Source: an uncultured Ruminococcus sp.
Lineage (GTDB): Bacteria > Bacillota > Clostridia > Oscillospirales > Ruminococcaceae
Reading direction: 5' to 3'
DNA: 39,305 bases
Assembly: GCA_902787365.1 (NCBI GenBank)
Contig: CADAGC010000025.1
Location: 1-39,305 of the forward strand
Below are positions 2,024 to 19,952 of the stretch, one piece after another. The notes under the pieces are model-generated. The model saw only the letters and a list, made by a program, of their open reading frames with translations. It did not search any database and was not told the origin of the DNA. Each line of letters opens with the position of its first letter. Position 1 is the first letter of the stretch. A program made the position numbers and the translations under genes.

Positions 2024-2052
2024 TTGACAAAAACTCTTGTAATTGGTATAAT
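2024..2052 (+). promoter_or_regulatory. consensus sigma-A promoter of the ABC-transporter locus
   Basis: TTGACA (2024-2029), a 17-bp spacer, and TATAAT (2047-2052) preceded by TGG, giving an extended -10. Both hexamers match consensus perfectly, so a strong vegetative promoter is expected with transcription starting near 2059. An inverted repeat, TTAAGATTAGC (2052-2062) and GCTAAATCTTAA (2089-2100), straddles the predicted start and could be an operator or an RNA structure. Confidence 0.85.
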
Positions 2053-2302: not shown

Positions 2303-3001
2303 ATGGCTAACACAAACTTACACAGTTCATGTCTGCTTGAGGCTAAAGACATCGGGCGTGACTTCAGGATCGGCGACGGCAGCGTGGTTTCTGCGCTAAA
2401 AGGCATAAACGCCGAGATAGAGAAGGGAACTCTTACAATATTAAGAGGGCGCTCGGGCAGCGGAAAGACGACGCTGATAAACATTCTCGGCGCACTTGAC
2501 AGACCCACCAAGGGAAGCGTTATATTTGACGGCAAGGACATAACCAAGCTTAGCGAAGGCAAGCGTGACGATCTGAGAAGATATGAAATGGCGTTTGTAT
2601 TCCAGTCGGTAGCTCTGATGTCGGGCATGACGGCTTACGAGAATGTGGAGTTTGGGCTGAGGCTTGCGGGATACCCTTATAAAATGAGGGACAAGCGAGT
2701 TAAAGAAGTGCTCGAAAACGTAGGGCTTGGCAAGAGAATGCACCACAGGCCGCCGGAAATGTCGGGCGGCGAGCAGCAGAGAGTTGCCATAGCGAGGGCG
2801 ATAGCCCACAACCCGAAGATAATATTTGCAGACGAGCCGACTGCCGAGCTGGACACTGCCACGGGGCTTCATGTAGTGAAGCTTTTCAAGGAGCTGGTGG
2901 CAAAGCACGGCATGACGATAATTATGACCACACATGACCCGAGCATGGTGGACATAGCCGACAAGGTTTACACTTTAGAGGACGGTGAGGTTGTTGAGTG
3001 A
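2303..3001 (+). CDS. ABC transporter ATP-binding protein, LolD/MacB-like
   Basis: A complete ABC nucleotide-binding domain of 232 residues. Walker A is GRSGSGKTT (49-57), the Q-loop glutamine is Gln101, the signature is MSGGEQQ (153-159), Walker B is IIFADEP (173-179), with D-loop AELD and switch His211 in THD. Sequence style and length match the LolD/FtsE/MacB group; there is no C-terminal TOBE/OB region as found in MalK/UgpC ATPases that normally power sugar importers. The ATG at 2303 is chosen because GAGGG lies 10 bases upstream; an in-frame GTG at 2264 has no comparable site. The second ATPase follows immediately, so the two probably form a heterodimer. No FtsX/MacB-type permease is nearby. 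Confidence 0.88.
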   Translation: MANTNLHSSCLLEAKDIGRDFRIGDGSVVSALKGINAEIEKGTLTILRGRSGSGKTTLINILGALDRPTKGSVIFDGKDITKLSEGKRDDLRRYEMAFVFQSVALMSGMTAYENVEFGLRLAGYPYKMRDKRVKEVLENVGLGKRMHHRPPEMSGGEQQRVAIARAIAHNPKIIFADEPTAELDTATGLHVVKLFKELVAKHGMTIIMTTHDPSMVDIADKVYTLEDGEVVE

Positions 3002-3011
3002 AGAGATCACC

Positions 3012-3944
3012 GTGAATGAAGAGATGACCGCCGATAACGGCGAATACATGATAAGGTGCGAGAACTTAGTTAAGATATACAAGACTGACGAAGTAGAGGT
3101 GGTTGCCTTACAGGGGCTTGACCTTGATGTTAAAAAGGGCGAGCTTATGGCGATAGTAGGCAACTCGGGAAGCGGCAAGTCAACGCTTCTGAATATGCTG
3201 GGCGGGCTTGACAGGCCGTCGGCAGGGAGCCTTTACATCGACGGGAAGAATCTATTAAAGTTCTCGGACAGGGACTATATGCAGTACAAGCGTGAGACTG
3301 TGGGGTTTGTATGGCAAAATAATGCGAGAAACCTCATACCTTATCTTACCGCACAGCAGAATGTGGAGATGCCCATGATACTCTCATCTAAAAAGGAGAG
3401 GAAAGCGAGGGCGGCGCAGCTGCTTGAAAAGGTAGGGTTATCTCACAGGAAAAATTCAAGGCTTGATCAGATGTCGGGCGGTGAGCAGCAGCGAGTGGCG
3501 ATAGCTATAGCGCTTGCGAACAACCCAAGACTTCTGCTTGCAGACGAGCCGACAGGCTCAGTCGATACAAAGACCTCGAACATGATACTTGATATCTTCA
3601 AGGAGCTGAACAAGAGTGAGGGCATCACGGTTGTGATAGTTACCCACGATGTCAAGCTTGCAAACCACATTGACCGTGTGGTGGCTATCAGGGACGGGAG
3701 AACGAGTTCGGAGATCGTCAGGAAACGTTCCTACAAGGCCGAGCTTGACGAAATGGGCGATATGCTCGCACCCGATGAAGAGGGCGGTGAGCAGACGCAC
3801 GAAGAGCTGGCGGTACTCGACCGCTCGGGAAGGCTTCAGATACCCAAGGAACACCTTGAGGCTATGGGGCTGCACGGGGGCGACAGAGTAAAGGTCGAGC
3901 TCGATGATGACGGAAAGGGGATAAGGCTGATACCGCCGTCATAG
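3012..3944 (+). CDS. ABC transporter ATP-binding protein with C-terminal AbrB-like domain
   Basis: Residues 1-235 are a second LolD/MacB-like ATPase: Walker A NSGSGKST (51-58), Q-loop VWQNN, signature MSGGEQQ (154-160), Walker B LLLADEP (174-180), switch His in THD (211-213). Residues about 266-308 read LAVLDRSGRLQIPKEHLEAMG followed by GDRVKVELDDDGKGIRLIP, which looks like an AbrB/SpoVT-type swapped-hairpin domain, joined by an acidic linker (about 245-265). Such domains normally bind DNA or dimerise; here one takes the place of the TOBE domain of sugar-importer ATPases. The start is uncertain: GTG 3012 has GAAGAG 6 bases upstream, while GTG 2985 (overlapping the previous gene) and ATG 3024 are alternatives. 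Confidence 0.85.
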   Translation: MNEEMTADNGEYMIRCENLVKIYKTDEVEVVALQGLDLDVKKGELMAIVGNSGSGKSTLLNMLGGLDRPSAGSLYIDGKNLLKFSDRDYMQYKRETVGFVWQNNARNLIPYLTAQQNVEMPMILSSKKERKARAAQLLEKVGLSHRKNSRLDQMSGGEQQRVAIAIALANNPRLLLADEPTGSVDTKTSNMILDIFKELNKSEGITVVIVTHDVKLANHIDRVVAIRDGRTSSEIVRKRSYKAELDEMGDMLAPDEEGGEQTHEELAVLDRSGRLQIPKEHLEAMGLHGGDRVKVELDDDGKGIRLIPPS

Positions 3945-3968
3945 CAAGAGGCAGACATTGCACCTTGC
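3944..3968 (+). other. weak intercistronic hairpin between ATPase and binding-protein genes
   Basis: GCAAG (3944-3948) pairs with CTTGC (3964-3968) and GCA (3951-3953) with TGC (3959-3961) around a short loop. There is no following T-run, so it is not a classical terminator; it could be a processing or stability element that sets the higher expression expected for the downstream binding protein. Confidence 0.25.
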
Positions 3969-4035
3969 GATCAATCAAGGAATATACCGTTTGGGTGATA
4001 TATCAGCAAATCAAGTAAGAAAGGTGGACTAAACA

Positions 4036-6975
4036 TTGAAACACACAAGGTTTAGGCGTATTGCTTCATCGGCTTTAGCGGCGGCACTTGTGCTTTCCAT
4101 GGCGCCCTCGGCGCTTGCGGACAACAAGTCTGCGAGCAGCGAAGCGTCGGCAGATGCGGTAGATGCTGCCAAAAGGGAAAACACCTACAGTGCGTATCTG
4201 AAAAGATATGCAGACGCAGAGCGTCCTGACGAGGAAGCAACAGTCTACGGCAAAGATTTCAAGGCTGTAGAGGGCTCGGACATCAGCTGTTCCGTAGAGT
4301 CGGTAGACGGAAAGGACAGCGTATTCAAATGGGCGAGCCAGACAGGTCAGGTAGACTTTACCGTAAACATACCCAAGACAGGACTTTATTTCGCACAGAT
4401 AAGCTACGAGGCGCTCGAGGGCACAACTTCGGACGTTGAGTTTGCGCTGCGCATTGACGGAAAGAGCCCCTATGCAACGGCAGAGCGTATAACTATGCCG
4501 AAGGTATGGGTAAACGAATCCGGCGATGAGATACAGAAGGACTCGAAGGGCAACGACATTCGTCCCGGACAGAGGGAAGAGGTAATGTGGCAGTTAAAGG
4601 ACATCGAGGACATCGACGGCCTTTCAAACGACCCGCTGGCATTCTACATGGAGGCCGGTGAGCACACTATCACTCTTGATTCCGAGAAGGCACAGTTTGC
4701 TATCGAGTACATCAAGTTCTACAACCACAAGCCGTTAAAGAAATATGACGTAACAGAGCCGAACTTCACACAGGCTACAGGCAAGAGGATAACTCTTGAG
4801 GGTGAGCTTGCCAAGTACAAGTCGGCAAAGACGCTGTTCCCCACATCGGACAACACATCTTATCTTACTTCCTCCTCAAACGGCTCTTCACCCACAAAGG
4901 AGAAGTACAACACGATAGGCGGCCAGGGCAACTGGAACAAATCTACCGAATCAATAACATGGGAGTTCAATGTTGACGCAGCAGGCTGGTACAAGATAGG
5001 CATAAGAGCCAGACAGGACCAGATGCGTGGTATGTACTCCAACAGAAGGCTTTACATAAACGGCGAAGTTCCTTACGAGGAAGCTGACCAGATAAAGTTC
5101 TTCTACGACACCGAATGGAATGTAACATCACCCAAGTCCGGCGATGAGACAATGTACTTCTATCTTGAATCGGGCAAGAACACCCTCACACTTGAGGCTA
5201 TACCCGGCGAGATAGGCGAGATAATGGACGAGATAGACGACATCGTTTATAATACAAACAGCTATTACAGACAGATTCGTCAGATCACAGGTCCTTCACC
5301 CGACGAATACAACAACTACAACATAGACAAGGCTATACCCACCTGCATAGAGGACTTTGAGAAGTTCTCCAAGCAGCTGATAGATGCACAGAAGAAGATC
5401 GAGGATCTCGCAGGCACAGGCGGTACAGAGGCTGTAACGCTGAGAACTATGTCGATAATCCTTGACAAGTGCGTTGACAAGCCTGACAGAATACCTTCGA
5501 TGATGTCACAGATTAAGGACAACATCACAGCAGTATCTGCATGGGTAACGCAGTACCGCTTCCAGCCGCTCGAAGTTGACATGATCGAGCTTTGCACAGA
5601 GGACGAGGACTTCACATCTACCGACAGCTCGTTCTTCAAGGGCCTTTCTTACGGCTTCTCCAAGTTCATAGGCTCATTCTTTGAGGACTACAACTCACTT
5701 TCAGACCTTGATGAGAATTCAAGCGACGTTATGACAGCCTGGATAACAACAGGCCGTGACAACGCAAAGATAGTTACAAACCTTATCAACAACGACTACA
5801 ACCTTAACGCAAGAACAAAAATCAACGTTAAGCTCGTTGTCGGCGGTATCGTTGAGGCGACATTCTCGGGCAAGGGTCCTGACATCGCTCTGTTCTTGGG
5901 CGGTGACTACCCGATACAGTTGGCGGCACGTGATGTCTTGGTAGACTTGTCGAAGATGGACGGGTTTGATGATGTTATCAAGAACTTCTCGAAGGACGCA
6001 ACGGTGCTCTACCAGTACAACGGCGGCACCTACGGCATACCGCTCGAGCAGCAGTTCCCGATGCTCTTCTACCGCTCGGATATCCTTGAGGAATACAGCA
6101 TCGACCCCAAGACAGACCTTACAACATGGGACGGTCTTATAAACGTTCTTCCCGCACTTCAGCGTAACTACATGGAGGTTGGCCTGATACTTGCTCAGAT
6201 GGGCTCGGCAGGCGTTACACAGATCTCGGCTACTACCGAGGCCGGCAACACCTTTGCTATGCTTCTCTTACAGCAGGGCATAAACTACTACAACGAGGAT
6301 CAGACCAAGACGAACTTCGACACTAACGAGGCAGTAAACGCATTCGACAAGTGGACAAAGTTCTACACCACATACAGCTTCTCGCAGACATATGATGCAT
6401 TCACACGTTTCAGAATGGGTGATATGCCTATCATAATCAACAACTACGGCTTCGCTAACCAGTTAGCAACAGCTGCACCCGAGATCAAGGGCTGCTGGGA
6501 CTTCCAGCCTGTTCCCGGAACAGTTCAGCCCGACGGCTCGATCAACCACGCAGCAAGCTCGGCAGGCGCAGGTGTCGTAGTATTCAAGAAGGCACCCAAC
6601 GTTGACGATGCCTGGGATTTCGTAAAGTGGTTCACATCTACAGAAGTTCAGACCTCTTACGGTCAGGACATAGAAGCAGTTCTCGGCACACTCGGTCGTT
6701 ACGCTTCTGCAAACGTTGAGACATTAGGTCAGCTCTCATGGACGAGCACAGAGTACAAGAAGCTCAGAGAGCAGCTCGATTCTCAGGTAGAGATACCCGT
6801 TATACCCGCTTCTTACGGTGTAACAAGAAACCTTATGAACGCATTCAGGCAGGTAGTTAATGATGCTGACAATGCAAGAGACACACTCTTCTGGTACAAC
6901 AAGGACATCAACGATGAGATCGAGCGTAAGCTTGAAGACCTTGATATGTACGATTACGAGAGCAGTAATAAATAA
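4036..6975 (+). CDS. very large extracellular solute-binding protein with two N-terminal beta-sandwich modules
   Basis: 979 residues, more than twice the usual length for a family 1 sugar-binding protein. Residues 1-29 are a signal peptide ending SALAD; there is no lipobox cysteine, so it is not an obvious lipoprotein. About 70-230 and 250-410 each look like carbohydrate-binding, CBM6/35-style jelly rolls (patterns such as GLYFAQISY...ALRIDGK and GWYKIGIRA...LYINGE). About 425-545 is helical. About 555-950 is the periplasmic-binding fold, with FSGKGPDIALF, NGGTYGIPLEQQFPMLFYR and the WDFVKWFTS segment near the end. The start is TTG with AAGGTGG 8 bases upstream. It is the only binding protein in the locus, just before two permeases, and presumably captures an extracellular glycan. 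How it is held at the cell surface is not clear. Confidence 0.85.
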   Translation: MKHTRFRRIASSALAAALVLSMAPSALADNKSASSEASADAVDAAKRENTYSAYLKRYADAERPDEEATVYGKDFKAVEGSDISCSVESVDGKDSVFKWASQTGQVDFTVNIPKTGLYFAQISYEALEGTTSDVEFALRIDGKSPYATAERITMPKVWVNESGDEIQKDSKGNDIRPGQREEVMWQLKDIEDIDGLSNDPLAFYMEAGEHTITLDSEKAQFAIEYIKFYNHKPLKKYDVTEPNFTQATGKRITLEGELAKYKSAKTLFPTSDNTSYLTSSSNGSSPTKEKYNTIGGQGNWNKSTESITWEFNVDAAGWYKIGIRARQDQMRGMYSNRRLYINGEVPYEEADQIKFFYDTEWNVTSPKSGDETMYFYLESGKNTLTLEAIPGEIGEIMDEIDDIVYNTNSYYRQIRQITGPSPDEYNNYNIDKAIPTCIEDFEKFSKQLIDAQKKIEDLAGTGGTEAVTLRTMSIILDKCVDKPDRIPSMMSQIKDNITAVSAWVTQYRFQPLEVDMIELCTEDEDFTSTDSSFFKGLSYGFSKFIGSFFEDYNSLSDLDENSSDVMTAWITTGRDNAKIVTNLINNDYNLNARTKINVKLVVGGIVEATFSGKGPDIALFLGGDYPIQLAARDVLVDLSKMDGFDDVIKNFSKDATVLYQYNGGTYGIPLEQQFPMLFYRSDILEEYSIDPKTDLTTWDGLINVLPALQRNYMEVGLILAQMGSAGVTQISATTEAGNTFAMLLLQQGINYYNEDQTKTNFDTNEAVNAFDKWTKFYTTYSFSQTYDAFTRFRMGDMPIIINNYGFANQLATAAPEIKGCWDFQPVPGTVQPDGSINHAASSAGAGVVVFKKAPNVDDAWDFVKWFTSTEVQTSYGQDIEAVLGTLGRYASANVETLGQLSWTSTEYKKLREQLDSQVEIPVIPASYGVTRNLMNAFRQVVNDADNARDTLFWYNKDINDEIERKLEDLDMYDYESSNK

Positions 6976-6994
6976 AGGAGGGAGTTATTGATTT

Positions 6995-7942
6995 ATGGCT
7001 AAAAACAATGCCGGCGGACAGCAGGTCCCGATGAACAAGGCAGGAAAATGGGCATATACATGGCACATGGTCAAGGTCAACAAGGCCGCTTACGGACTTC
7101 TGGCTCCCTTTATGATACTGTTCATTATATTCCTGATAGTGCCTATAGTAATGAGTCTTCCTATAGGCTTTACAAACTTCAACATGGTTCAGTTCCCGAA
7201 ATTCGTGGGGCTGTCAAACTTCAAGACTCTGTTCCTCAATGATGATGTATTCCTTATAGCTATAAGAAATACTCTCATATTCGCAGTATTTACCGGCCCC
7301 TTCTCCTACATACTGAGCTTCATACTTGCATGGCTCATAAACGAGATGCACCCGGTACTCAAAACATTCTTTACATTCGTATTCTATGCGCCTTCAATGA
7401 CCACATCGGTTTACGTTATCTGGCAGCTGATCCTTTCGGGCGACGCTAACGGTTACATAAACTCGGTAATGATGGACATAGGCATATTCACACAGCCTGT
7501 TCAGTTCCTTACAGACACCAAGTACATTCTTGGCGTATGTATAGTAGTTCAGCTGTGGATCTCGATGGGTGCGGGCTTCCTTGCACTTCGTGCGGGCTTC
7601 CAGAACATCGACCCCTCGATGTACGAGGCAGGCGCTATCGAGGGCATCAAGAACAGATGGCAGGAGCTGTTTATGATAACCATTCCTTCAATGGGTCCTC
7701 AGCTTCTCTTCGCAGCTGTTCTTCAGATCTCCTCTTCATTCACGGTAGGTGCGGTTGGTCAGGCACTTGTAGGTCTTCCTTCATCTGACTATGCAGCACA
7801 CACCATTATGAACCACGCAACTGACTACGGCTACATCCGTTTCGAGATGGGCTACTCGGCGGCAATATGCTTTGTACTGTTCGCAGCCATGCTGCTTGCA
7901 AACAAGGGCATCAATTCGTTGCTTGCCAAGTATCTTGACTAA
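6995..7942 (+). CDS. ABC sugar permease, MalF/UgpA-like (pair 1)
   Basis: A 315-residue inner-membrane permease with about six hydrophobic helices, the first at about 35-57. The cytoplasmic EAA loop reads EAGAIEGIKNRWQELFMITIP, the segment that docks on the ATPase. The family forms a heterodimer with a MalG-like partner, which is the next gene. A strong AAAGGAGGGAG precedes the ATG. The gene lies 19 bases after the binding-protein stop, consistent with one transcript. Confidence 0.92.
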   Translation: MAKNNAGGQQVPMNKAGKWAYTWHMVKVNKAAYGLLAPFMILFIIFLIVPIVMSLPIGFTNFNMVQFPKFVGLSNFKTLFLNDDVFLIAIRNTLIFAVFTGPFSYILSFILAWLINEMHPVLKTFFTFVFYAPSMTTSVYVIWQLILSGDANGYINSVMMDIGIFTQPVQFLTDTKYILGVCIVVQLWISMGAGFLALRAGFQNIDPSMYEAGAIEGIKNRWQELFMITIPSMGPQLLFAAVLQISSSFTVGAVGQALVGLPSSDYAAHTIMNHATDYGYIRFEMGYSAAICFVLFAAMLLANKGINSLLAKYLD

Positions 7943-7959
7943 GGAGGTGAGTATACGAA

Positions 7960-8856
7960 ATGGCAAGAAAAAGAAGAAAGGTCTCGATAGAGAAGCTTAA
8001 GGTAAAGGACAAGAAAAAGAACGTCAACAAATCGCTCGGAGGCGATATTGCGATATTCATTTTCCTGTGTCTGCTCGGCTCATTCATGCTGTTCCCTCTG
8101 TATTACTCACTGGTACAGTCGATAAAGCCTGTTGAAGAGCTGTTCGTATTCCCGCCTAAGCTCTACGTTCTCAACCCCACGAGCAAGAACTTCTCAGACC
8201 TTGTAAACATAGCTTCAAATATGTGGGTACCGCTTTCAAGATACATCTTCAACTCGGTATTCATCACAGTAGTTGTTTGCGTATGCAACGTATTCGTAAG
8301 CTGCTGTGCAGCATTCGCACTTGCAAAGTGCCGTTTCCCCGGCGCAAACTTCCTCAACAAGCTGATAGTAACCGCCCTGCTTTTCTCATCGCAGGCAACA
8401 TGGATCATGACATTCCTCGTACTTTCAAAGCTTGGCCTTATCGATACATACGGCGCACTTATTCTCCCGAATATTGCAACGCCTCTCGGTCTGTTCCTTA
8501 TGAGACAGAGTATGTCAACGATACACGATTCAATGATAGAGGCTGCCAAGATGGACGGCGCAGGCCTCTTCAGGATATGCTGGCAGATAGTTGTTCCCAA
8601 CTCGAAGCCTGCGATAATGACACTTATTATCTTCGCATTCCAGGGTGCCTGGAATATGCAGGGCGGCGTGCTCATCTACTCTGAAGAGCTCAAGACCCTG
8701 CCTACGATAGTTCAGCAGATCTCAATGACCGGTCTTTCCCGTCAGGGCGCTGTTTACGCAGCAGCAGTTGTACTGCTCATCCCGCCGCTGGTTGTATTCC
8801 TCCTCGCACAGAGCCAGGTTATGGAAACAATGGCTAACTCGGGTATCAAGGATTGA
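7960..8856 (+). CDS. ABC sugar permease, MalG/UgpE-like (pair 1)
   Basis: A 298-residue permease with a basic, lysine-rich N-terminus (about 1-30), six predicted membrane segments and the EAA loop EAAKMDGAGLFRICWQIVVP. It begins 17 bases after the MalF-like gene with AAGGAGG as ribosome-binding site, and should be its heterodimer partner. Substrate cannot be read from sequence; the family handles oligosaccharides and glycosides. Confidence 0.92.
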   Translation: MARKRRKVSIEKLKVKDKKKNVNKSLGGDIAIFIFLCLLGSFMLFPLYYSLVQSIKPVEELFVFPPKLYVLNPTSKNFSDLVNIASNMWVPLSRYIFNSVFITVVVCVCNVFVSCCAAFALAKCRFPGANFLNKLIVTALLFSSQATWIMTFLVLSKLGLIDTYGALILPNIATPLGLFLMRQSMSTIHDSMIEAAKMDGAGLFRICWQIVVPNSKPAIMTLIIFAFQGAWNMQGGVLIYSEELKTLPTIVQQISMTGLSRQGAVYAAAVVLLIPPLVVFLLAQSQVMETMANSGIKD

Positions 8857-8899
8857 TAACAGACCCTAACACATTATTAAAAGGAAAAAGGTGAAACGA

Positions 8900-10507
8900 A
8901 TGTCAATAAGAAAAAAGATCAAAAGAATCCTCACTCTTGCTTTGACAGCCTCACTTTGCTCGGTCATGACGATAACGGCATTTGCTGATGAGCCTTACAA
9001 TTCATACAGCTACGATTCCTGGGAACAGCCTATACCCTCACAGAGTGCGTACAGGATCTCGGCAACGATAACAGGCTATGAACTCGGGCTCAGCCAGCTG
9101 CGTGACCCCTCAAGTCCTTACTATGTAAGTGATGACGCTGTGGTGACGCTTTCCGGTGCAAAGGATCTTTTCTGTGACGAGGACGCCAGAGAATTCTGGA
9201 TAGCCGACACGGGCAATCACAGAATATTAAGAACCAACGAGGACTTCAAGCTCATCGGCGTATACTACGGCGTGAGCGGTGACAGCGAGATAAACAAGGA
9301 CGAAGCCACAGGGCTCTCAAACTTCAACGAGCCTATGGGCTTATACGTCAAGACAAGTATGTATACCAACGAAAAGATGGTCTACATAGCTGACAACAAG
9401 AATGCAAGAGTAGTTAAGGCAAAACTTACTACAGCAAATACTCTTGAGCTTGTTCAGGAATACACAAAGCCTGAGAAGGAGCTCTACACACAGACTACTT
9501 TCAACCCCTCGAAGGTTATCGCAGACAATGCAGAGAACGTATACTGCGTTGTAACATCGGTAAACACCGGTGCGGTAATGTTTGCAAGAGACGGCTCGTT
9601 CACGGGCTTCTACGGCGCAAACAGAGTTGAAGTAACAGCTAAGGTTATAGCTCAGACGCTCTGGAGAAAGATAGCGTCTAACGACCAGATAAACGCTATG
9701 GAGCGTAACGTTCCGGCAGAGTTCAACAACTTTGACATCGACTCGGAAGGCTTCATCTACACAGTAACTGAAAAGGGCAACACCTCGACAGACGCTGTAA
9801 AGAAGCTCAACTCCGCAGGCTACAACATCTGGGACAACAATGCGGGCAACGAGTACAAGTTCGGTGATATCACAGACGCCGTTTGGGACTCGGTATCAAA
9901 CAAGAAGCACAACAAGATGCTGACCGACATAGTTATCGACAAGTTCGGCAGGATGAACGTGCTCGACTTTGAAACGGGAAGAGTTTTCCAGTATGACAAG
10001 AATGCAAACCTTATATGCATCTTCGGTACAAAGACCTCCTCGGCAGACCAGAGAGGCTCGTTCTCACAGCCCAACGCTGTTGAGACTCTCGGCGAGAACG
10101 TTTATGTAATAGACGGCTCGAAGAACGACATCACAGTATTCACAACGACCACATTCGGTCAGCAGGTACACAAGGCTGTTAACCTCTATGATGAGGGTAA
10201 ATACACAGAGGCTGTTCCTTACTGGAACAACGTTATGGACAGAGACGGCCTTTACACACTCGCATACATAGGCATGGGCAAGGCTTCCCTCAACCAAGAG
10301 AAGTACACAGAGGCTCTCGACTACTTCAAGACAGCATACGACAGAAAGGACTATGACAAGGCCTTCAAGTATGCAAGAGAGGACTTCCTGAGAGAACACT
10401 TCACGGCAATAATAATCATAATCCTGGTTCTTATAGCACTCCTGATAGTAAGAAAGATTCTTATTCACAAGGGTATTATAGTGATCCACGAGCGTGAGAG
10501 AATTTAA
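8900..10507 (+). CDS. secreted NHL-repeat beta-propeller with TPR and C-terminal membrane anchor
   Basis: An N-terminal signal peptide ends near AFADE. About 50-425 contains NHL-type repeats (for example FWIADTGNHRILR, MVYIADNKNARVVKA, NVYVIDGSKNDITVF), which fold as a beta-propeller. About 425-500 has TPR-like helices (YDEGKYTEAVPYWNNVM, LNQEKYTEALDYFKTAY). A membrane helix near the C-terminus (IIIIILVLIALLIVRKI) leaves a short basic cytoplasmic tail. It is therefore probably an extracytoplasmic scaffold or sensor anchored beside the transporter. ATG 8900 fits AAAAAGG at 8 bases; GTG 8891 is an alternative adding three residues. No enzymatic motif was recognised. Confidence 0.8.
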   Translation: MSIRKKIKRILTLALTASLCSVMTITAFADEPYNSYSYDSWEQPIPSQSAYRISATITGYELGLSQLRDPSSPYYVSDDAVVTLSGAKDLFCDEDAREFWIADTGNHRILRTNEDFKLIGVYYGVSGDSEINKDEATGLSNFNEPMGLYVKTSMYTNEKMVYIADNKNARVVKAKLTTANTLELVQEYTKPEKELYTQTTFNPSKVIADNAENVYCVVTSVNTGAVMFARDGSFTGFYGANRVEVTAKVIAQTLWRKIASNDQINAMERNVPAEFNNFDIDSEGFIYTVTEKGNTSTDAVKKLNSAGYNIWDNNAGNEYKFGDITDAVWDSVSNKKHNKMLTDIVIDKFGRMNVLDFETGRVFQYDKNANLICIFGTKTSSADQRGSFSQPNAVETLGENVYVIDGSKNDITVFTTTTFGQQVHKAVNLYDEGKYTEAVPYWNNVMDRDGLYTLAYIGMGKASLNQEKYTEALDYFKTAYDRKDYDKAFKYAREDFLREHFTAIIIIILVLIALLIVRKILIHKGIIVIHERERI

Positions 10508-10522
10508 GGGGGGGAAAATTAT

Positions 10523-11152
10523 ATGTATGAATATTCCACTATAGGGTGGCTCAAGCATTGTATTTTCCATCCTGTTGAAGGGTTTGAGGATCTTCGCTGG
10601 AAGAAGAAAGGCTCAATATCCGTAGCAATTACAATAGTAGCATTCCTGTTCATAGCAATGGTCGTTGACCACCAGCTCACAGGCTTTGCTTACAACGAAA
10701 ACTATGTTAAGGTATTCAACGTTGTACCTCTCTTGGTACAGTCGGTAGTATACTTCATAACATGGGTAGTCGGCAACTGGGCGCTTTGTACGCTGTTCGA
10801 CGGTGAGGGTACATTCAAGAGGATCTTCATCTACTCGGCATATGCGCTGGTTCCCTACATTGTCTGCACGTTTATAGCAGTTATTCTTTCAAACGTGCTG
10901 GTAACTGAAGAAGCTATCTGGATAACAGCTGTTCAGTGGCTGGGTCTTGGCTGGTCGCTCATACTGATGATTCAGGCTATGAGAGCTGCTCACCAGTACT
11001 CATTCACAAAGACACTTATCTCGATGATATTTACAGTAGTGGTAATGCTTCTTATACTTTTCCTTGCTGTACTTCTCATCTCGCTGTTCCAGCAGCTTTA
11101 CGTATTCATCTATCAGATATACACGGAAATACTTTACAGAGTCAGAGGCTAA
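10523..11152 (+). CDS. Yip1-family integral membrane protein
   Basis: A 209-residue protein with about five hydrophobic segments and an N-terminal WLKHCIFHPVEGFEDLRWKKKGS, the characteristic entry into the Yip1 domain. GNWALCTLFDGEGTFKRIFIYSAYALVPYIVC is also typical of bacterial Yip1 members. Function in bacteria is unknown. It follows the NHL protein by 15 bases with a GGGGGG-type ribosome-binding site, and precedes the DUF5696 gene by 26 bases, so it is part of the same operon; an assembly or lipid-environment role for the transporter is speculation. Confidence 0.82.
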   Translation: MYEYSTIGWLKHCIFHPVEGFEDLRWKKKGSISVAITIVAFLFIAMVVDHQLTGFAYNENYVKVFNVVPLLVQSVVYFITWVVGNWALCTLFDGEGTFKRIFIYSAYALVPYIVCTFIAVILSNVLVTEEAIWITAVQWLGLGWSLILMIQAMRAAHQYSFTKTLISMIFTVVVMLLILFLAVLLISLFQQLYVFIYQIYTEILYRVRG

Positions 11153-11178
11153 CTTACAGAAACGGTGGTGTAAAATAA

Positions 11179-13623
11179 ATGCATAACAGAGAATTTAAAA
11201 AGGCTATGGTTTTTGCGTTAGTTCTTACAATGCTGATGCCTCTGGGCTCGGTGGTCGCTTCTTCATCTGATGACAGTGCATCTGATGAGGCAGTAGCAGC
11301 AAATGCTGCGGACGACAAGACCGAAAAGAGTGATGACGCCAAGGAAGGCGACGACGCCAAGGACGAGGACGAAAAGGAAGATAAGGCTGACAAGAATGAT
11401 GATGAGGAAGTAAAGCCCATCACCGACGAGGAAGCTATCAAACCTGAATCCTGCGAGAAGGCGGCGGAGAACGACAAGTTCATACTCTATTCGGACAAGG
11501 ACAACGAAAGAATAGGCCTTTATGTAAAGGAAAGCGGCCAGTACTGGTGGTCAAGCCCCATAAACACATGGGCAGATCAGTCGATCGTTGATGAGGGCAA
11601 GGGCTCGACCATGAAGAAGGCACAGAGAAAGCAGGTTTCATCAAGCCTTGTGATCTCATACGCTGACCTTTTACAGAGCAAGAGAAATGTTACCGATGTA
11701 TACTCGGCTAACGCAACAAGAAATTTCAAGACGAACAATAAGGGCGTCGTAGTTACATACAAGTTCAACAAGTCGAGCGGCGGCTTCAAGATCCCCGTTC
11801 ACTACGAGCTTGATGACAAGGGTCTTTACGTATATGTTGATACTAAGGACATTGACGAGCCCGACACAAACTCTATCGACGGCAAGATTCTCACAAGGAT
11901 AAGCTTTGCACCGTACTTCGGCGCACAGGCACCTGCCGAGATAGACGGAACGCCCATAAACGGCTACATGATAGTTCCTGACGGAAGCGGTGCTGTAATC
12001 AACTACAACAACGGCAAGTCGAACTACGCCGACTATGAGCAGGTAGTATACGGAAGGGACTACACTCCCGTTCCGCTGTCTGCACCGAGAGTTACACAGC
12101 AGTCATTCATGCCTGTTGCGGCTACGGTAAAGGGCAGAGACGGCCTTGTACTTGTAGCAACTGACGGTGACTCATACGTTACCACAAACGCACAGGTTAC
12201 AGGTCAGAACAAGCAGTCATTCAACAGCGTGAACTTCACCTTTACGGTAAGGAGCACCGACCAGTTCTACATGAGCGGCGACTCGACCAACAGGCTGACG
12301 GTTTACGAAAAGGGCGACATAAAGACTGAGCGTGTAGGCGTTCGCTACTACCCCGTGACTGCCGCTGAGGGCGAGCAGGTAAACTACGCAGACTGTGCGG
12401 CGGTTTACAGAGATTACCTCATTGAGAACAAGGGTCTTGAAAAGAAGACCGAGCAGGGCAAGACCCCGCTTTACGTAGACCTCTACGGCGGCGTTCTCAA
12501 GCAGACATCTATCTTAGGTCTGCCTTTCGATCTCAAGACTGAGATCACAGGCTTCAAGCAGGCAGGCGAGATCGTTGACAAGTTAAAGGAAGAGAGCATT
12601 GACGACATAGTTGTTAACTACAACGACTGGACAAATGACTCGATCAAGAAGAAGATATCGACTGATGCAGATGCTTCGGGCACTCTGGGCGGTCAGGACG
12701 ACTTCAAGGACTTCCTCGGAACAGACGGCGTGACAGTTTACCCGTCGATGAACAACAACACATTCGATTCAAGCTCCTGGGGCTACATGACCCTGACGAG
12801 CACAGCGATAAGAATATCTAACGCTTATTCAAGACAGAGCAAGTATTCCTACGCATTCGGTGTTGCAGAGGTAGGCGTTTCACCCGCACTTCTCTCACCC
12901 TCAAAGTACAGTCAGGTATTTGACGAGATGCTCACAAGCTACAAGGACGAGAGCGTTGACAACATAGGCTTCGGCGACTTCTCATACAAGCTTTCGAGCG
13001 ATTTCTCGACAAAGAACACCTCTGTAAGAGACACAACAATGAAGACTCTCATAGAGGGCTATGAAAAGGCTAAGGGCGACATGGGCAGCGTTATAACCGA
13101 TTCGGCAAACGCTTATGTAATTCCCTACACCGATCATATCACAAATGTTCCCGTATACTCGAGCGGCTTCAACATAACCGATTACGACATACCTTTCTAT
13201 CAGATGGTAGTTCACGGCTATGTACCTTACTCGGGCAAGCCTATCAACGCAAGCTCCAACAGCGACGAGATGTTCATGTTAAGCTTAGCGGCAGGCTCGA
13301 ACGTTCATTACGATATGATCTACGAAGATGCAGATGTGCTTCAGGATACTGAGTACAACGATCTCTACTACGCACACTATTCGGGCTGGGTTCCCCACGC
13401 TGCGAAGGAATACGAGATCACCAAGCAGGTGCTTTCGGGCGTCAGCGGCATGACTATCAAGAAGTATGAAAGAAGCGCTGACGGCAACGAGCTGAAGACT
13501 GTTTACACAGACGGCTCGAAGGACGTTGAGATAAGAGTTAACATGACAAACGCTACTGCAACCGTTGACGGTGTGACTTACGATCTCAGCGAAGCATTAA
13601 GTGAAGGAGGGTTGAACGGCTGA
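11179..13623 (+). CDS. DUF5696-family secreted protein, possible glycoside-hydrolase-like enzyme
   Basis: 814 residues with an N-terminal signal peptide (1-27, ending VVASS), then a very acidic, low-complexity linker of D, E, K and A (about 28-85). The body carries family-typical segments: KESGQYWWSSPINTWADQ, YMIVPDGSGAVINYNNGK, VVYGRDYTPVP, and AHYSGWVPHAAKEYEITKQVL close to the end. I recognise the DUF5696 pattern but no characterised activity. The order of a beta-rich N-half and a later region with VDLYGGVL and DDIVVNYNDWTND is compatible with a glycosidase-type beta-domain plus barrel, which is inference only. It overlaps the next permease gene by one base (TGATG), so it is translationally coupled to transport. 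Confidence 0.78.
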   Translation: MHNREFKKAMVFALVLTMLMPLGSVVASSSDDSASDEAVAANAADDKTEKSDDAKEGDDAKDEDEKEDKADKNDDEEVKPITDEEAIKPESCEKAAENDKFILYSDKDNERIGLYVKESGQYWWSSPINTWADQSIVDEGKGSTMKKAQRKQVSSSLVISYADLLQSKRNVTDVYSANATRNFKTNNKGVVVTYKFNKSSGGFKIPVHYELDDKGLYVYVDTKDIDEPDTNSIDGKILTRISFAPYFGAQAPAEIDGTPINGYMIVPDGSGAVINYNNGKSNYADYEQVVYGRDYTPVPLSAPRVTQQSFMPVAATVKGRDGLVLVATDGDSYVTTNAQVTGQNKQSFNSVNFTFTVRSTDQFYMSGDSTNRLTVYEKGDIKTERVGVRYYPVTAAEGEQVNYADCAAVYRDYLIENKGLEKKTEQGKTPLYVDLYGGVLKQTSILGLPFDLKTEITGFKQAGEIVDKLKEESIDDIVVNYNDWTNDSIKKKISTDADASGTLGGQDDFKDFLGTDGVTVYPSMNNNTFDSSSWGYMTLTSTAIRISNAYSRQSKYSYAFGVAEVGVSPALLSPSKYSQVFDEMLTSYKDESVDNIGFGDFSYKLSSDFSTKNTSVRDTTMKTLIEGYEKAKGDMGSVITDSANAYVIPYTDHITNVPVYSSGFNITDYDIPFYQMVVHGYVPYSGKPINASSNSDEMFMLSLAAGSNVHYDMIYEDADVLQDTEYNDLYYAHYSGWVPHAAKEYEITKQVLSGVSGMTIKKYERSADGNELKTVYTDGSKDVEIRVNMTNATATVDGVTYDLSEALSEGGLNG

Positions 13624-14699
13624 TGAGTAATGAAATTAAAGAAAACGAAATACTCGATGATGTAAACGAGGCTACCGAAGCTACTGAGGAAGCAGCAGAG
13701 CAGATCGAGGAAGCAGCCGAGGAGACACCCGAGGTCACGGCGAGTGAGCAGGAGTTTGAGAGCAAGATCTCATCAAGCGCTGCACCCGCCAAGCAGAAGG
13801 GCATGAAGATACCCTACGAAAGAAGAAAGGCGCTTTACGGCTACGGCTTTATAGCACTCTGGTTCATAGGCACGATATACTTCTTCATCGTTCCGCTGAT
13901 CGAGTCACTTGTTTACTCGTTCAACAAGACACAGCCTGTAAATGGCGAGATGAAGCTTGAATATGTAGGCCTTGACAACTACATCTATGCGTTCAGAAAG
14001 GACGTTGACTATTCACCCGCCCTTGTTGCAATGCTCAAGGACACGGCACTTAAGACACCGCTTATACTTATCTTCTCGATATTCGTAGCGGTAATACTCA
14101 ACCAGAAGTTCAAGGGAAGAACTCTTGCAAGAGCTATATTCTTCCTGCCCGTTATCATAGCTACAGGTCCTGTTATCGACATCATCAACGGTAACATGAG
14201 CACAGGTGGTTATGCAGGCGGTTCCGAGCAGTTCTCCTCAATGTTCGAGGCTAACCTCGTTGATGAACTTCTCAACTTCTTAGGCGTTTACAACATTTCT
14301 GACTCACTCACCGAGATCATAAGCTCGGTAGTAAGCGACATCATGAACCTTGTATGGAACTCAGGTATCCAGATACTCCTCTTCCTGTCGGCATTACAGG
14401 GTATTCCTACCTCTGCTAAGGAAGCTGCAAACATGGAAGGTGCTACCGCATGGGAGTACTTCTGGAAGATAACCATTCCCTACATAAGCCCTATGATACT
14501 TGCAAGCATAGTTTATACGGTTGTTGACTCATTCGTTGACCCTTCAAACGATGTCATGCTGTTGGTTCTTACCAAGTCATCGAGCTGGGAGCACGGTATG
14601 ATGGCGGCTATGGCGTGGAGCTACTTTGCGATTGTCGGCGTAGTGCTCGGTATAGTTGTTATCATAGTAAACAAGGTCGTTTACTACGAAGTAGAGTAA
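13623..14699 (+). CDS. ABC sugar permease, MalF/UgpA-like (pair 2)
   Basis: 358 residues. The first 55 or so form an unusual acidic, Glu/Ala-rich cytoplasmic extension (EATEATEEAAEQIEEAAEE), followed by a basic segment and about six membrane helices beginning near residue 75. The EAA loop is EAANMEGATAWEYFWKITIP. AGGAGG lies about 10 bases before the ATG, which overlaps the DUF5696 stop. It pairs with the next gene. A second MalF-like permease in one locus with a single binding protein is unusual. Confidence 0.9.
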   Translation: MSNEIKENEILDDVNEATEATEEAAEQIEEAAEETPEVTASEQEFESKISSSAAPAKQKGMKIPYERRKALYGYGFIALWFIGTIYFFIVPLIESLVYSFNKTQPVNGEMKLEYVGLDNYIYAFRKDVDYSPALVAMLKDTALKTPLILIFSIFVAVILNQKFKGRTLARAIFFLPVIIATGPVIDIINGNMSTGGYAGGSEQFSSMFEANLVDELLNFLGVYNISDSLTEIISSVVSDIMNLVWNSGIQILLFLSALQGIPTSAKEAANMEGATAWEYFWKITIPYISPMILASIVYTVVDSFVDPSNDVMLLVLTKSSSWEHGMMAAMAWSYFAIVGVVLGIVVIIVNKVVYYEVE

Positions 14700-14712
14700 G
14701 GGGGTGGAGTAA

Positions 14713-15747
14713 TTGGCAACTAAAAAAGAAGAAAAGCAGTTTGAAAAAGAGCGCAAAAAGGCTCGCAAAGAACGTCTTAAGCGCATGAAGGAAGAGGGCA
14801 TAGAGAAATACCTTACCCCCGACCAGATACGCTACAACAGACGTAAGGCGCTGATAGACTCCATCTGGCCTATATTCAGATTCCTTATTCTGTTCGGCCT
14901 TGGATTTATCATACTCTACCCGATGATATTCATGATCTCTACGGCATTCAGACCCAGCGAGCAGATGAACGACCCGTCGATCATCTGGCTGCCCAAGAGT
15001 CTGACTATGGATAACATCAACGACGTATGGAAGGTTATGGACTTCGGCAACACAGCTATCAACACAGTTATACTCAACCTTGTGGCTTCGGTACTGGAAG
15101 TTCTCTCCTGCTCGATAACAGGTTACGGCTTCGCAAGATTCAAGTTCAAGTTCAAGGGGTTACTGTTTGCTATAGTTACTCTTATGATCATAGTTCCGCC
15201 GCAGATCATCACGATACCGCTGTTCATGCAGTACTCGTTCGGCTGGATAACTGTTTTAAAGGGCGGCGAGTCGCTCATAAACAGCCCGCTTACCATGTAT
15301 CTGCCCGCTATATTTGCTAACGGCATAAGAGGCGGTCTGTTCATCTACATCTTCCGTCAGTTCTTCAGAGGACTTCCCAAGGAACTTGAGGACGCTGCCT
15401 ATCTTGACGGCTGCGGCCCGCTTAGAACTTACGTACAGGTAATGGTTCCTAACGCTAAGACTTCATTCCTTACGGTTTTCCTTTTCGCAATAGTTTGGTA
15501 CTGGAACGACTTCTACATTTCGTCCTCGTACTTCACAAGAAACGATACCGTTGCGCTGATGCTCAAGAACCTGAATGCAACTCTTATTCAGGAACTCTTC
15601 TCGGGTCAGCAGGTTGGTATCAGACAGATAATAGTTTGGCTTGAAGCTGGCTGTATCCTGTCGATAACGCCGATACTTATCATGTATGTATTCCTGCAAA
15701 GGTACTTCATCGAGGGTGTTGAGCGTTCGGGTATCACAGGTATCTGA
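14713..15747 (+). CDS. ABC sugar permease, MalG/UgpE-like (pair 2)
   Basis: 344 residues, starting at TTG with GGGGGTGGAG upstream. A highly charged Lys/Glu-rich cytoplasmic N-terminus (about 1-40) precedes six predicted membrane segments. The EAA loop is DAAYLDGCGPLRTYVQVMVP, with Asp in place of the usual Glu. It is the last gene of the locus and is followed by a strong terminator at 15762. Confidence 0.9.
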   Translation: MATKKEEKQFEKERKKARKERLKRMKEEGIEKYLTPDQIRYNRRKALIDSIWPIFRFLILFGLGFIILYPMIFMISTAFRPSEQMNDPSIIWLPKSLTMDNINDVWKVMDFGNTAINTVILNLVASVLEVLSCSITGYGFARFKFKFKGLLFAIVTLMIIVPPQIITIPLFMQYSFGWITVLKGGESLINSPLTMYLPAIFANGIRGGLFIYIFRQFFRGLPKELEDAAYLDGCGPLRTYVQVMVPNAKTSFLTVFLFAIVWYWNDFYISSSYFTRNDTVALMLKNLNATLIQELFSGQQVGIRQIIVWLEAGCILSITPILIMYVFLQRYFIEGVERSGITGI

Positions 15748-15900: not shown

Positions 15901-15935
15901 TAGAATGATTGGAAAATAAGGAAAGGGGCATACTA

Positions 15936-16781
15936 ATGGCAGAGCAGAGAGCACCCTCGCCGGCGATAAGGGCGAGAAACCAGCAAAGTGTCATATCACT
16001 GTTCTGTGTGTGCGCTGCGGTGGCGGCGTTTGTGTGGCTGATCATGACGGGAATGAGCTTTGAAAAGATGCCCGCAGGTGATGACAGCAGCGAAGAGGTC
16101 GTAGCTGTTGACAAGAAAGACAGCGACGTTGATAAAGATACAAGCAGCGATTCCGACAGCTCGGACGGCGACTCACAGCCCGACGAATCGGAGCCTGACA
16201 ACATAGAGCACGGCCCTGCGGATTTCTCGGACGCTTGCTTTATAGGCGACTCGAGAACAGTCGGCCTTTCATACAACTCGGGCAAGCCTATGGCTACATT
16301 CTACTGTGCGACGGGTCTTAACGTCTCCTCGGCGCTTGATGAGGCAAACATTGAGCTTGACAACGGCAACATGGGCAACGTAGCAGATGCTTTGGGGCAG
16401 AGGCAGTTTGAGAGAATATATGTAAACTTCGGTATCAACGAGGTAGGCTGGCCTGATATAGACAGCTTCCAGAGGGAATACGAGGAACTGCTTAATGCTG
16501 TGAAGACTGCACAGCCAAACGCCAAGATATACGTTGAGGGAATAATCCCCGTAACGGCTTCAAAGGACGCAGAGGGTTATCCGTTCACGAATGCGAACAT
16601 AGCTGATTTCAACACGGCGGTAAAGGCTGCGGCTGATAACTGCGGCTGCATTTACATTGATGTAAGCCCCGCACTTGTTGATGCAAACGGCTGCCTGCCC
16701 GAAGATGCGGCGACAGATGGTATACACATGACAAAGGATTACCTTGTCAAGTGGATAGAATACTTAGAGAAGAACACATAA
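15936..16781 (+). CDS. membrane-anchored SGNH/GDSL hydrolase
   Basis: 281 residues. A signal-anchor helix at about 18-40 is followed by a long Asp/Ser-rich extracellular linker, then an SGNH hydrolase domain. Block I is CFIGDSRTVGL (nucleophile serine in GDS), a later block reads YVNFGINEVGW (with the Gly-x-Asn element), and the Asp-His pair is in TDGIHMTKDY. The family removes acyl groups from polysaccharides or peptidoglycan. ATG 15936 is chosen over TTG 15909 because AAAGGGG sits 8-9 bases upstream. A DUF4358 lipoprotein, an MBOAT acyltransferase and a DHHW protein follow, suggesting polymer O-acetylation or de-acetylation at the cell surface. Confidence 0.88.
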   Translation: MAEQRAPSPAIRARNQQSVISLFCVCAAVAAFVWLIMTGMSFEKMPAGDDSSEEVVAVDKKDSDVDKDTSSDSDSSDGDSQPDESEPDNIEHGPADFSDACFIGDSRTVGLSYNSGKPMATFYCATGLNVSSALDEANIELDNGNMGNVADALGQRQFERIYVNFGINEVGWPDIDSFQREYEELLNAVKTAQPNAKIYVEGIIPVTASKDAEGYPFTNANIADFNTAVKAAADNCGCIYIDVSPALVDANGCLPEDAATDGIHMTKDYLVKWIEYLEKNT

Positions 16782-16799
16782 AAGAAAGGGAAGATAAAA

Positions 16800-17306
16800 A
16801 TGAAAAAGAAGATAGCACTTATTCTTGCGGTAATGACAATATTCGGCTGCGGGCTGACAGCCTGCGGTGATGAAAGTTCATCATCAGGCGGCAGCGGCAG
16901 CTCGGCTTCACAGAGCGAGGGCGAAAGCGGCAAGAGCGTTATAGAAGTAGCAGACGAGCTGAAAAACGGCATTGAGTTCAAGGATCAGCTCAACGAGCTT
17001 GGTCATGGTATGTACGACAAGCTTTATGGTCTTACCGACGATATGTACAAGGAAGGCAAGATATACATCGGCTCGGGCGGTGCAACTGCCGAGGAGATTG
17101 CCTGCTTTGAGGCAAAGGACGCTGACGGCGCTGCAAAGATCAAGGAATGCTTTGAGAAGAGAGTCGAGGATCAGAAGAAGGCTTTTGAGAACTACGTTCC
17201 CGAAGAGCTTGACAAGCTTGGCTCGGCAGTAATAGTTACAAAGGGCAACAGCGTTTATATGTGCATCTCGAATGACGATGCAAAGGCAAAAGAGATAATA
17301 GGCTAA
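16800..17306 (+). CDS. DUF4358-family lipoprotein
   Basis: 168 residues with a lipoprotein signal peptide (lipobox LTAC, Cys about 22), a Ser/Gly-rich linker (about 25-47) and a compact domain. IYIGSGGATAEEIACFEAKD and the terminal YMCISNDDAKAKEII match the DUF4358 pattern. Members are often found beside MBOAT and SGNH genes, as here; the role is unknown, perhaps as an accessory to acyl transfer. AAAGGGAAG precedes the ATG and the gene is 18 bases after the hydrolase. Confidence 0.8.
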   Translation: MKKKIALILAVMTIFGCGLTACGDESSSSGGSGSSASQSEGESGKSVIEVADELKNGIEFKDQLNELGHGMYDKLYGLTDDMYKEGKIYIGSGGATAEEIACFEAKDADGAAKIKECFEKRVEDQKKAFENYVPEELDKLGSAVIVTKGNSVYMCISNDDAKAKEIIG

Positions 17307-17318
17307 ACAGATATTTCA

Positions 17319-17357
17319 GAGGTAAGGGGTCAATTTCCGGCCTCTTGCCTTTTTGTT
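17319..17357 (+). terminator. intrinsic terminator after the DUF4358 gene
   Basis: AGGTAAGGGGTC pairs, with some G-T pairs, with GGCCTCTTGCCT, followed by TTTTTGTTG. It separates the SGNH/DUF4358 pair from the MBOAT gene, which nevertheless starts only about 40 bases later. Confidence 0.6.
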
Positions 17358-17394
17358 GTATTAGTACGAATGATCTTAAGGGGAGTTAACGCTT

Positions 17395-18810: not shown

Positions 18811-18821
18811 GGGGGGCAGGA

Positions 18822-19952
18822 ATGATGAAAGCAAAAATAATAACCCTTACATTCCTGCTTTTCATATTCGGCTTCGGGATAGCGGGGCTGGTGCTTGATG
18901 ACAGGGAGTTTTCCGACATGGAGAACAGGCTGCTGGCGCAGTCGCCCGAGGTGACATACGATGCGGTGATGAAAGGCGAGTTTCAGGACAAGCTGGAGAG
19001 CTACCTCTCAGACCAGATGCCGATGCGTGACGGGCTGTATTCGCTAAAAGTCGATTACGAGCGGCTGATGATGAAGACATATCAAAACGGCGTATACTTT
19101 GCAGACGACGGGTATCTTATTCAGGAATACAAGGAAAACCCCATGCAGATAAGCAGGAACGTGCAGTATATAAACGACTTTGCGCAGAATGTCGATGTGC
19201 CGATAACCTTTATGCTCGTACCAACGGCAACGGCGGTCTTGAATGACAAGCTGCCTGCGGGGTGTCTCAACGACGACCAGATGAAGAGCATAGACAAGGT
19301 GAGAGAGAGCCTTGATGACAAGATAAACCTTGTAGTGCCTGATGAAAAACTCAAACAGGCGGCAGGGAGCGAGCAGATATTCTACCGCACCGACCACCAC
19401 TGGACGGCGCAGGGTGCTTATGCAGGCTATGAAGCGCTTATGGAATCCCTTGGCAAACCCAAAGCACGGGCAAAGTATGAATACGACACCTTTAAGGGCG
19501 AGTTTTACGGCACGCTGTATTCAAAGGCACCCTCGGCATTACAGGAGTCTGACAGCTTCACAGCGCCCAAGAACAAAGAGGGCAATTATGCGGTGAGCTT
19601 TGCAAAGGAGCAGGAAAACCCACGCACGCTCATTGGTATGTACGACCCCACAAAGCTTGAGACCAAAGACAAGTATGCAACGCTTTTCGGCGGCAACTTC
19701 TCGCACTTTACAATTCACACTAATGCTCAGAACAAAGAGCGCATACTGGTGATAAAAGACTCTTACGCAAACGCCGTGCTTCCCTTTCTTGCAGACAGCT
19801 ATGCGACAATTGAAGTTATAGATATGCGTTACTATCACATGGAGCAGCAGACAGTCTCGGAGCTTATAAAGAGCGAGGGCGTTTCGCAGGTAGTGCTGCT
19901 TTACAATATGGATTTCTTTAATTCAGACAATAATTTCCTGTGGCTTGATTAA
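18822..19952 (+). CDS. DHHW/AlgX-like secreted acetyltransferase-associated protein
   Basis: 376 residues with an uncleaved or cleavable N-terminal hydrophobic segment (about 4-24). The motif YRTDHHWTAQGAY (around 185-197) defines the DHHW family and corresponds to the catalytic region of AlgX/AlgJ SGNH-like proteins; VIKDSYANAVLPF near 310 carries the typical DSY serine. LLYNMDFFN follows near the end. It should act outside the membrane with the MBOAT protein. GGGGGGCAGG precedes two adjacent in-frame ATGs; the first is given. Confidence 0.88.
   Translation: MMKAKIITLTFLLFIFGFGIAGLVLDDREFSDMENRLLAQSPEVTYDAVMKGEFQDKLESYLSDQMPMRDGLYSLKVDYERLMMKTYQNGVYFADDGYLIQEYKENPMQISRNVQYINDFAQNVDVPITFMLVPTATAVLNDKLPAGCLNDDQMKSIDKVRESLDDKINLVVPDEKLKQAAGSEQIFYRTDHHWTAQGAYAGYEALMESLGKPKARAKYEYDTFKGEFYGTLYSKAPSALQESDSFTAPKNKEGNYAVSFAKEQENPRTLIGMYDPTKLETKDKYATLFGGNFSHFTIHTNAQNKERILVIKDSYANAVLPFLADSYATIEVIDMRYYHMEQQTVSELIKSEGVSQVVLLYNMDFFNSDNNFLWLD

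Follow-up and report, generated by a model that had tools for sequence, protein, structure and literature searches.

The window analysed here, a stretch of 39,305 nucleotides from an uncultured Ruminococcus sp. (GenBank assembly GCA_902787365.1, contig CADAGC010000025.1), contains an operon-like locus in which two ATPase genes of the LolD/MacB type precede an import cassette with two permease pairs. Ten open reading frames (ORFs) are arranged in tandem on the + strand between positions 2264/2303 and 15747, with an intergenic spacing of -16 to +92. Gene labels are based on ORF calling and on Pfam and NCBIfam profile scans of the window proteins. These scans upheld the families assigned in an earlier, sequence-only reading of this DNA (ATPases, binding protein, permeases, NHL-TPR, Yip1 and DUF5696 proteins), which had counted eleven genes where the ORF list shows ten. 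The features of the locus are as follows.

2024..2052, + strand: promoter-like site, TTGACA-17-TATAAT with TG before the -10 element, 12/12 consensus bases
2303..3001, + strand: ATP1, LolD/MacB-type ATP-binding cassette (ABC) ATPase; the ORF is open also from GTG 2264
2985..3944, + strand: ATP2, LolD/MacB-type ABC ATPase with a C-terminal AbrB/MazE-like tail
4036..6975, + strand: giant binding protein with N-terminal CBM35/CBM6-like beta domains, a helical linker and a C-terminal SBP_bac_8/SBP_bac_1 domain
6995..7942, + strand: F1, MalF/UgpA-like permease with EAA loop (UgpA model, 4.6e-12)
7960..8856, + strand: G1, MalG/UgpE-like permease with EAA loop
8891..10507, + strand: NHL beta-propeller and TPR protein with hydrophobic N-terminus and C-terminal membrane helix
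10523..11152, + strand: Yip1-domain membrane protein (E 4.2e-18)
11179..13623, + strand: DUF5696 protein (E 2e-159) with hydrophobic N-terminus and GH129-type fold, probably non-catalytic
13623..14699, + strand: F2, MalF/UgpA-like permease with EAA loop
14713..15747, + strand: G2, MalG/UgpE-like permease with EAA loop
15763..15787, + strand: terminator-like hairpin, 10 pairs

F1 gave no match in the Pfam scan up to E 0.1. The consensus promoter and the terminator that had been proposed at 2024 and 15762 were both recovered as the sites listed above. Between positions 1500 and 20300, 20 promoter-like sites were found versus 22.0 expected by chance and 21 terminator-like sites versus 15.6 expected, both close to chance, and only the perfect promoter score stands out.

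The genes for the giant binding protein, F1/G1, NHL-TPR, Yip1, DUF5696 and F2/G2 appear from their distribution to form an ancient conserved unit, referred to here as the cassette. Two genome samples were surveyed, 398 genomes drawn phylum-wide and 197 drawn from the family. DUF5696 was found above the family cut-off in 39/398 phylum genomes, two of them with short partial matches, and in 76/197 family genomes, including several short partial matches to other proteins; a strong match (about 199 bits or more) is present in 62 of the 197 family genomes. By choice, 60 of the 83 strong family rows and 40 of the 56 strong phylum rows (199 bits or more) were studied as loci, which together with 16 named loci and the window amounts to 117 loci, 113 with distinct DUF5696 sequences. 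The nearest named loci belong mostly to rumen Ruminococcus assemblies, R. bicirculans 80/3 among them. All loci were annotated by profiles built from the window's proteins, and gene order was counted over same-strand profile-matched genes, loci with too near a contig end being dropped from the respective count.

Upstream of DUF5696, NHL follows either directly or after Yip1 as the nearest matched gene in each of the 109 testable loci; Yip1 is present in 80 of the 109 cassettes. F2 and G2 are located downstream of DUF5696 in 108/109 testable loci, the sole exception being L190, in which F2 is split into two frames. Upstream of NHL, the giant binding protein, F1 and G1 are found in 88/100 loci. 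Since the loci were chosen through DUF5696, these counts show that DUF5696 never travels without NHL-F2-G2, while the reverse is not implied. The check for co-conservation suggested in the sequence-only reading has accordingly come out in favour of the cassette, the gene order of which is strongly kept over the 113 distinct DUF5696 loci. The split F2 of L190, like an in-frame TAG within ATP2 at G505:C25, represents an assembly error or decay. A shorter version, NHL-DUF5696-F2-G2 with no giant binding protein-F1-G1 within the fetched stretch, occurs in L110-L113, L117, L120-L123 and L126, and up to three such cassettes are found in several genomes. In L110, L113, L117 and L122 the NHL (717-772 residues) and DUF5696 (943-965 residues) proteins are longer.

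A classical binding protein, in most cases 430-600 residues long, is an additional component of many of the first 97 loci (45 proteins in 35 loci, two representatives scanned), and a LacI-type cluster gene is present in 11 (one representative scanned). Neighbouring clusters include, as judged from representatives, GH26-CBM35, GH95 and GH3 and in addition GH43, GH5, GH10, GH28, GH130 and others (93 of 133 neighbour representatives scanned). This glycoside hydrolase neighbourhood fits the import of varied plant-glycan fragments, with no single substrate indicated. The import cassette that was initially proposed, operon-like and comprising two permease pairs plus exoproteins, is well supported, both by its co-conservation and by its location near glycoside hydrolases. 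In the literature searched the cassette was not found as a unit, and DUF5696 itself is absent from the papers searched.

The two ATPases at the head of the locus display a different distribution. Both are closest to LolD/DevA/FtsE/MacB models, with scores under the curated cut-offs; for the LolD equivalog (NCBIfam cut-off 307.75) they reach 202.7 and 240.5 bits, below threshold. The AbrB/MazE-like tail of ATP2 (residues about 279-317, E 2.5e-7), which had been overlooked before, is kept in 15/15 aligned cassette-linked homologues and also in 5/5 printed cassette-free copies; the ATP2 copy of G495 is short (243 residues) and stands outside the 15-sequence alignment. It is speculation that a dimerising tail of this kind might link two transporters or act as a sensor. 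Among the 88 loci that extend 9.8 kb or more upstream, ATP1-ATP2 heads the cassette in 28, all from one Ruminococcaceae group. None was seen in the 40 wider-phylum loci, not all of which reach far enough upstream; L106 and L133, two of these, have unrelated low-scoring ATPases upstream.

Six public loci (L146 and L152-L156) carry, behind the cassette and in the same orientation, genes for a HlyD-type membrane fusion protein (MFP) and an FtsX/MacB-type permease of 936-995 residues. An FtsX homologue was detected in 36/197 family genomes (profile, E 1e-60 or better) and ATP2 in 32/197 (profile, E 1e-90 or better; scoring covered the 11 top candidates of each genome, and at least G489 escaped detection). 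All 32 ATP2 genomes also carry an FtsX homologue; 20 of them possess the cassette and 12 have no strong DUF5696 match. Conversely, ATP2 was not detected in 42 of the 62 strong-DUF5696 genomes, one of which, G467, has an ATP2 cut off by the end of its contig. Four FtsX genomes had no detected ATP2 (G489, G467, G427 and G575), and inspection of G489 revealed MFP-FtsX-ATP1-ATP2. The same order is found free of the cassette in L178-L181 and L183, L182 stopping after ATP1. In the 14 inspected cassette genomes with FtsX elsewhere (L164-L177, two short contigs), the stretch fetched around MFP-FtsX has no ATP1/ATP2-like gene. One of these is the window's own genome (L164), where MFP-FtsX is located at G000:C4 and Pfam FtsX matches part of the FtsX gene. 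The statement of the sequence-only reading that no FtsX-like permease is present is thus true of the window, though the genome does have one.

Judged by the gene order in relatives and the co-occurrence, ATP1/ATP2 is most likely the ATPase part of an MFP-FtsX system, now heading a sugar operon. A dedicated MacB-type engine for MalF/MalG-type pores, the heterodimer first suggested, is probably wrong, as judged from these genome comparisons: ATP2 is undetected in 42/62 cassette genomes, an FtsX homologue is present in 32/32 ATP2 genomes, the pair is situated directly behind MFP-FtsX in cassette-free relatives, and 59/62 cassette genomes have an ATPase with an OB_MalK domain. Gene order and co-occurrence, though not biochemistry, assign the two ATPases to another system, an outcome that the sequence-only reading had itself named as a refutation.

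A MalK-type ATPase with an OB/TOBE domain is not encoded in the operon, and one is found elsewhere in the genome. This single OB_MalK ATPase is of the MsmX type, and no neighbouring permease is evident in the 3.2 kb read, where the neighbours are unannotated. That MsmX might be missing from the window's genome was rejected upon finding this orphan gene. OB_MalK (MsmX-type) ATPases occur in 59/62 cassette genomes versus 97/135 others (counted by eye; Fisher 1e-4). The sharpest case is G558 (99% complete), in which MsmX is retained and the cassette is its only detected partner: only two MalG-type matches are present, both of them cassette permeases, and the BPD-type matches comprise the four cassette permeases, a PstC/PstA pair and one amino-acid-type permease. 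The MsmX orthologue of G558 is 87% identical to that of the window's genome and scores above the UgpC cut-off. G470 and G560 likewise show only two MalG-type matches; G470 also encodes PotC-like, PotA-like and SaoP-like proteins as well as one unassigned permease. EAA loops are present in all four window permeases, and the EAA core is the same with the ATPase pair (31 sequences) and without it (64-82 sequences). In Caldicellulosiruptor bescii, whose CUT1 systems have no ATPase of their own, a published deletion shows that the use of oligo- and polysaccharides depends on a shared MsmK (PMC8579813); a later preprint on a xyloglucan transporter states the same MsmK dependence (PMC12710961).

The predicted model of the DUF5696 protein (mean predicted local distance difference test score, pLDDT, 74) shows a three-domain GH129 fold. 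In the profile scans the window's DUF5696 protein matched only DUF5696 and, weakly, Mltc_N; Pfam PF11308 gave no match in this protein and none in G000. The GH129 positions were read from an alignment of DUF5696 with L225, which is weak exactly there. L225 is a clear PF11308 member (88.7 bits), yet entered the set via a short DUF5696 match of its genome; the hhalign template consisted of three sequences, of which L226 and L227 came as weak DUF5696 matches, so that the template is not independent of DUF5696. At the position of the nucleophile, column 600 is D in 42/113, and column 599 is mostly G in the family and mixed outside; at that of the acid/base, column 641 is D in 42 and E in 21 of 113. 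These aligned positions are taken as the catalytic ones of GH129; one of them, D486, is named in the title of the GH129 structure 8rzk. A PDB sequence search with the DUF5696 profile yielded five matches, short stretches of repeat-protein and ribosomal chains, which were taken as chance. The possible hydrolase of the sequence-only reading survives as a predicted glycosidase fold but not in its GH129 catalytic positions, and DUF5696 is likely a pseudo-glycosidase. The proteins of about 640 residues at L226 (541-2481) and L227 (1081-3000), with weak GH129 and DUF5696 profile matches, are a possible bridge between the two families.

Within the giant binding protein (979 residues), the second half matches SBP_bac_8 (E 5.5e-25) and SBP_bac_1 (E 1.2e-18), and the N-terminal half gives weak CBM35 and golvesin-type matches, not recognized previously. 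Its predicted structure is of low confidence (mean pLDDT 59). Structure matches were CBM35/CBM6/CBM22 for the beta domains and CbpB-type binding proteins for the rest and, at rank 1, a Cry protein whose template modelling scores (TM-scores) were very low; at such a pLDDT these matches may be taken as hints only. A lipobox was found in 10/95 giant binding proteins and 25/113 DUF5696 proteins, and a C-terminal membrane helix in 102/111 NHL proteins. The same scan was positive for only 16/45 classical binding proteins from these loci and assigned no hydrophobic segment to the window's giant binding protein, and is too insensitive to carry an argument.

Taken together, the locus is best read as the fusion of a CUT1-type cassette (4036-15747) with the ATPase pair of an unlinked MFP-FtsX system, the pores being powered by MsmX, an interpretation considered probable though by no means certain. 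Its direct basis is the gene order, co-conservation and co-occurrence, the predicted DUF5696 fold, and the finding that the genome encodes both MsmX and MFP-FtsX; from these we infer binding roles, subunit contacts, co-transcription, energy source, substrate and the function of the FtsX complex. Plant-glycan fragments would be bound on the cell exterior by the giant binding protein with its CBM domains and by DUF5696 with its GH129 fold. The NHL-TPR protein, anchored through its C-terminal helix, could tether or organise these surface binders at the membrane, and Yip1 might help assembly. Pair 1 would be loaded by the giant binding protein, and pair 2 by DUF5696/NHL or another, separate binding protein, with ATP being supplied to both by the shared orphan MsmX-type ATPase encoded elsewhere. 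ATP1/ATP2 (2303-3944), presumably co-transcribed with the cassette, would power the unlinked MFP-FtsX complex, which resembles MacAB/YknXYZ.

Several observations weigh against this interpretation. G446, G431 and G590 (75%, 70% and 93% complete) have the cassette and no OB_MalK match, and MsmX has other CUT1 partners in most genomes, so that its presence alone proves little. The genomes are mostly drafts, in which absence and non-linkage are weaker than presence, and sampling via DUF5696 leaves cassettes without DUF5696 unseen. Moreover, the ATPase pair and the cassette are linked in 20/20 family genomes that share them (19 on maps, G432 via a contig bearing ATP2 and G1), whereas FtsX is found directly behind the cassette in only 3/20 (G441, G461 and G544). 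In these genomes the pair is bound more closely to the cassette than to FtsX; co-regulation would suffice as an explanation, although the pair may have a second role at one permease pair. The view that two chance neighbours make up the ten genes was rejected because of the 20/20 linkage. Mirror-tree distance correlations all lie between 0.80 and 0.94 (ATP2 with FtsX 0.938, with F2 0.942) and are uninformative as to the hypotheses. The flanks of the EAA core differ with and without the pair (for example NAKTSF versus NAIPAF in G2); kinship may account for this, another ATPase could too, and the comparison does not appear decisive. Finally, two residues of DUF5696, D608 (100 of 113 sequences) and D668 (101 of 113), are conserved and could belong to another active site.

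The latter observation leads to the alternative that survives best, in which DUF5696 is an active surface glycosidase trimming oligosaccharides for pair 2. Given that the columns matching the GH129 nucleophile and acid/base vary (n=113), this is regarded as unlikely, though less so than the other alternatives.

Somewhat less probable is that the operon and MFP-FtsX form one surface pathway, in which FtsX, MFP and Yip1 assemble or release capture proteins or export an effector during glycan use. Consistent with such a pathway, MFP-FtsX comes immediately after the cassette in the three family genomes and in the six public loci that partly overlap with them. A further point in its favour comes from Bacillus, where a Yip1 protein, YknW, modulates how the MFP-FtsX-ATPase complex YknXYZ is assembled (PMC4887032). 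However, Yip1 is found in cassettes without the ATPase pair (e.g. L072 and L102) and had no match in the fetched stretches around standalone MFP-FtsX-ATP1-ATP2 operons; it therefore does not appear to be simply a YknW.

It is doubtful that ATP1/ATP2 energise both MFP-FtsX and one cassette pair, with MsmX serving the other, the ATPases having been captured by the cassette for this purpose. Such sharing would account for the constant FtsX partner together with a linkage stricter to the cassette than to FtsX, and for the differing EAA-flanking positions of pair-bearing cassettes, but the EAA core is identical with and without the pair. We know of no precedent for one ATPase serving both transporter folds. 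A composite is given slightly less credence still: a catalytically dead glycosidase, DUF5696, would act together with the NHL propeller as extracellular receptor for a MalF/MalG-type permease pair, replacing a classical binding protein, in a two-pore importer that in Ruminococcus captured an ATPase pair still driving an FtsX complex as well. Least probable of all is the model of the sequence-only reading, with ATP1/ATP2 as a dedicated heterodimer driving both MalF/MalG-type pairs: the tight operon, the invariant cassette linkage, the difference between the ATP1 and ATP2 sequences, as expected of a heterodimer, and ATP2 distances that track the permeases are outweighed by the standalone MFP-FtsX operons ending in the same pair, the constant co-occurrence with FtsX, the cassette genomes without detected ATP2 (G467 with its cut copy included) and the retention of MsmX, also in G558.

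Divergent to the operon, positions 74-1520 on the - strand encode a spoIIA-like set composed of a STAS protein, a HATPase anti-sigma-like protein and a sigma-70 factor. The operon is followed at 15909-19952 (+ strand) by GDSL lipase-like, DUF4358, MBOAT O-acyltransferase and DHHW/AlgX-like proteins, which look like a surface glycan O-acetylation set. These four clusters recur behind the operon in 6 of the first 97 loci, window included; two of the six, L092 and L148, look alike on the map. A DUF3810 protein is encoded at 30063-31214 (- strand).

Returning to the favoured reading of a CUT1-type cassette joined to the ATPase pair of MFP-FtsX, the conserved cassette, absent as a unit from the papers searched, points to an undescribed route of plant-glycan uptake in Ruminococcaceae and other members of the phylum. 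The remaining interest lies in a widespread two-permease cassette with a likely pseudo-glycosidase. The locus is also a warning that an adjacent ATPase may not serve the neighbouring permeases: in this case the place of a gene in the operon and the system it belongs to do not agree, and comparing co-occurrence across genomes is of help in separating the two.

Among the closest known systems are CUT1 importers that share MsmX or MsmK. Common to these and the locus are MalF/MalG-type permeases with EAA loops, a binding protein of the SBP_bac_1/8 type, an orphan MsmX-type ATPase encoded elsewhere and glycoside hydrolases nearby; shared-ATPase CUT1 systems are likewise without MalK in the operon (PMC8579813). 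In contrast to these importers, the cassette has two permease pairs in an invariant order with NHL-TPR, Yip1 and GH129-fold proteins, and its giant binding protein bears CBM-like domains. With MacAB/YknWXYZ the locus shares LolD/MacB-like ATPases, which end MFP-FtsX operons in relatives, and a Yip1 gene in the operon, the Yip1 protein YknW working with YknXYZ (PMC4887032). It differs from them in having two ATPase genes instead of one, an AbrB-like tail on ATP2 and, in the window's genome, ATPases separated from MFP-FtsX. Compared with the GH129 enzymes ZgGH129 and NagBb, the nucleophile and acid/base positions are not conserved in DUF5696.

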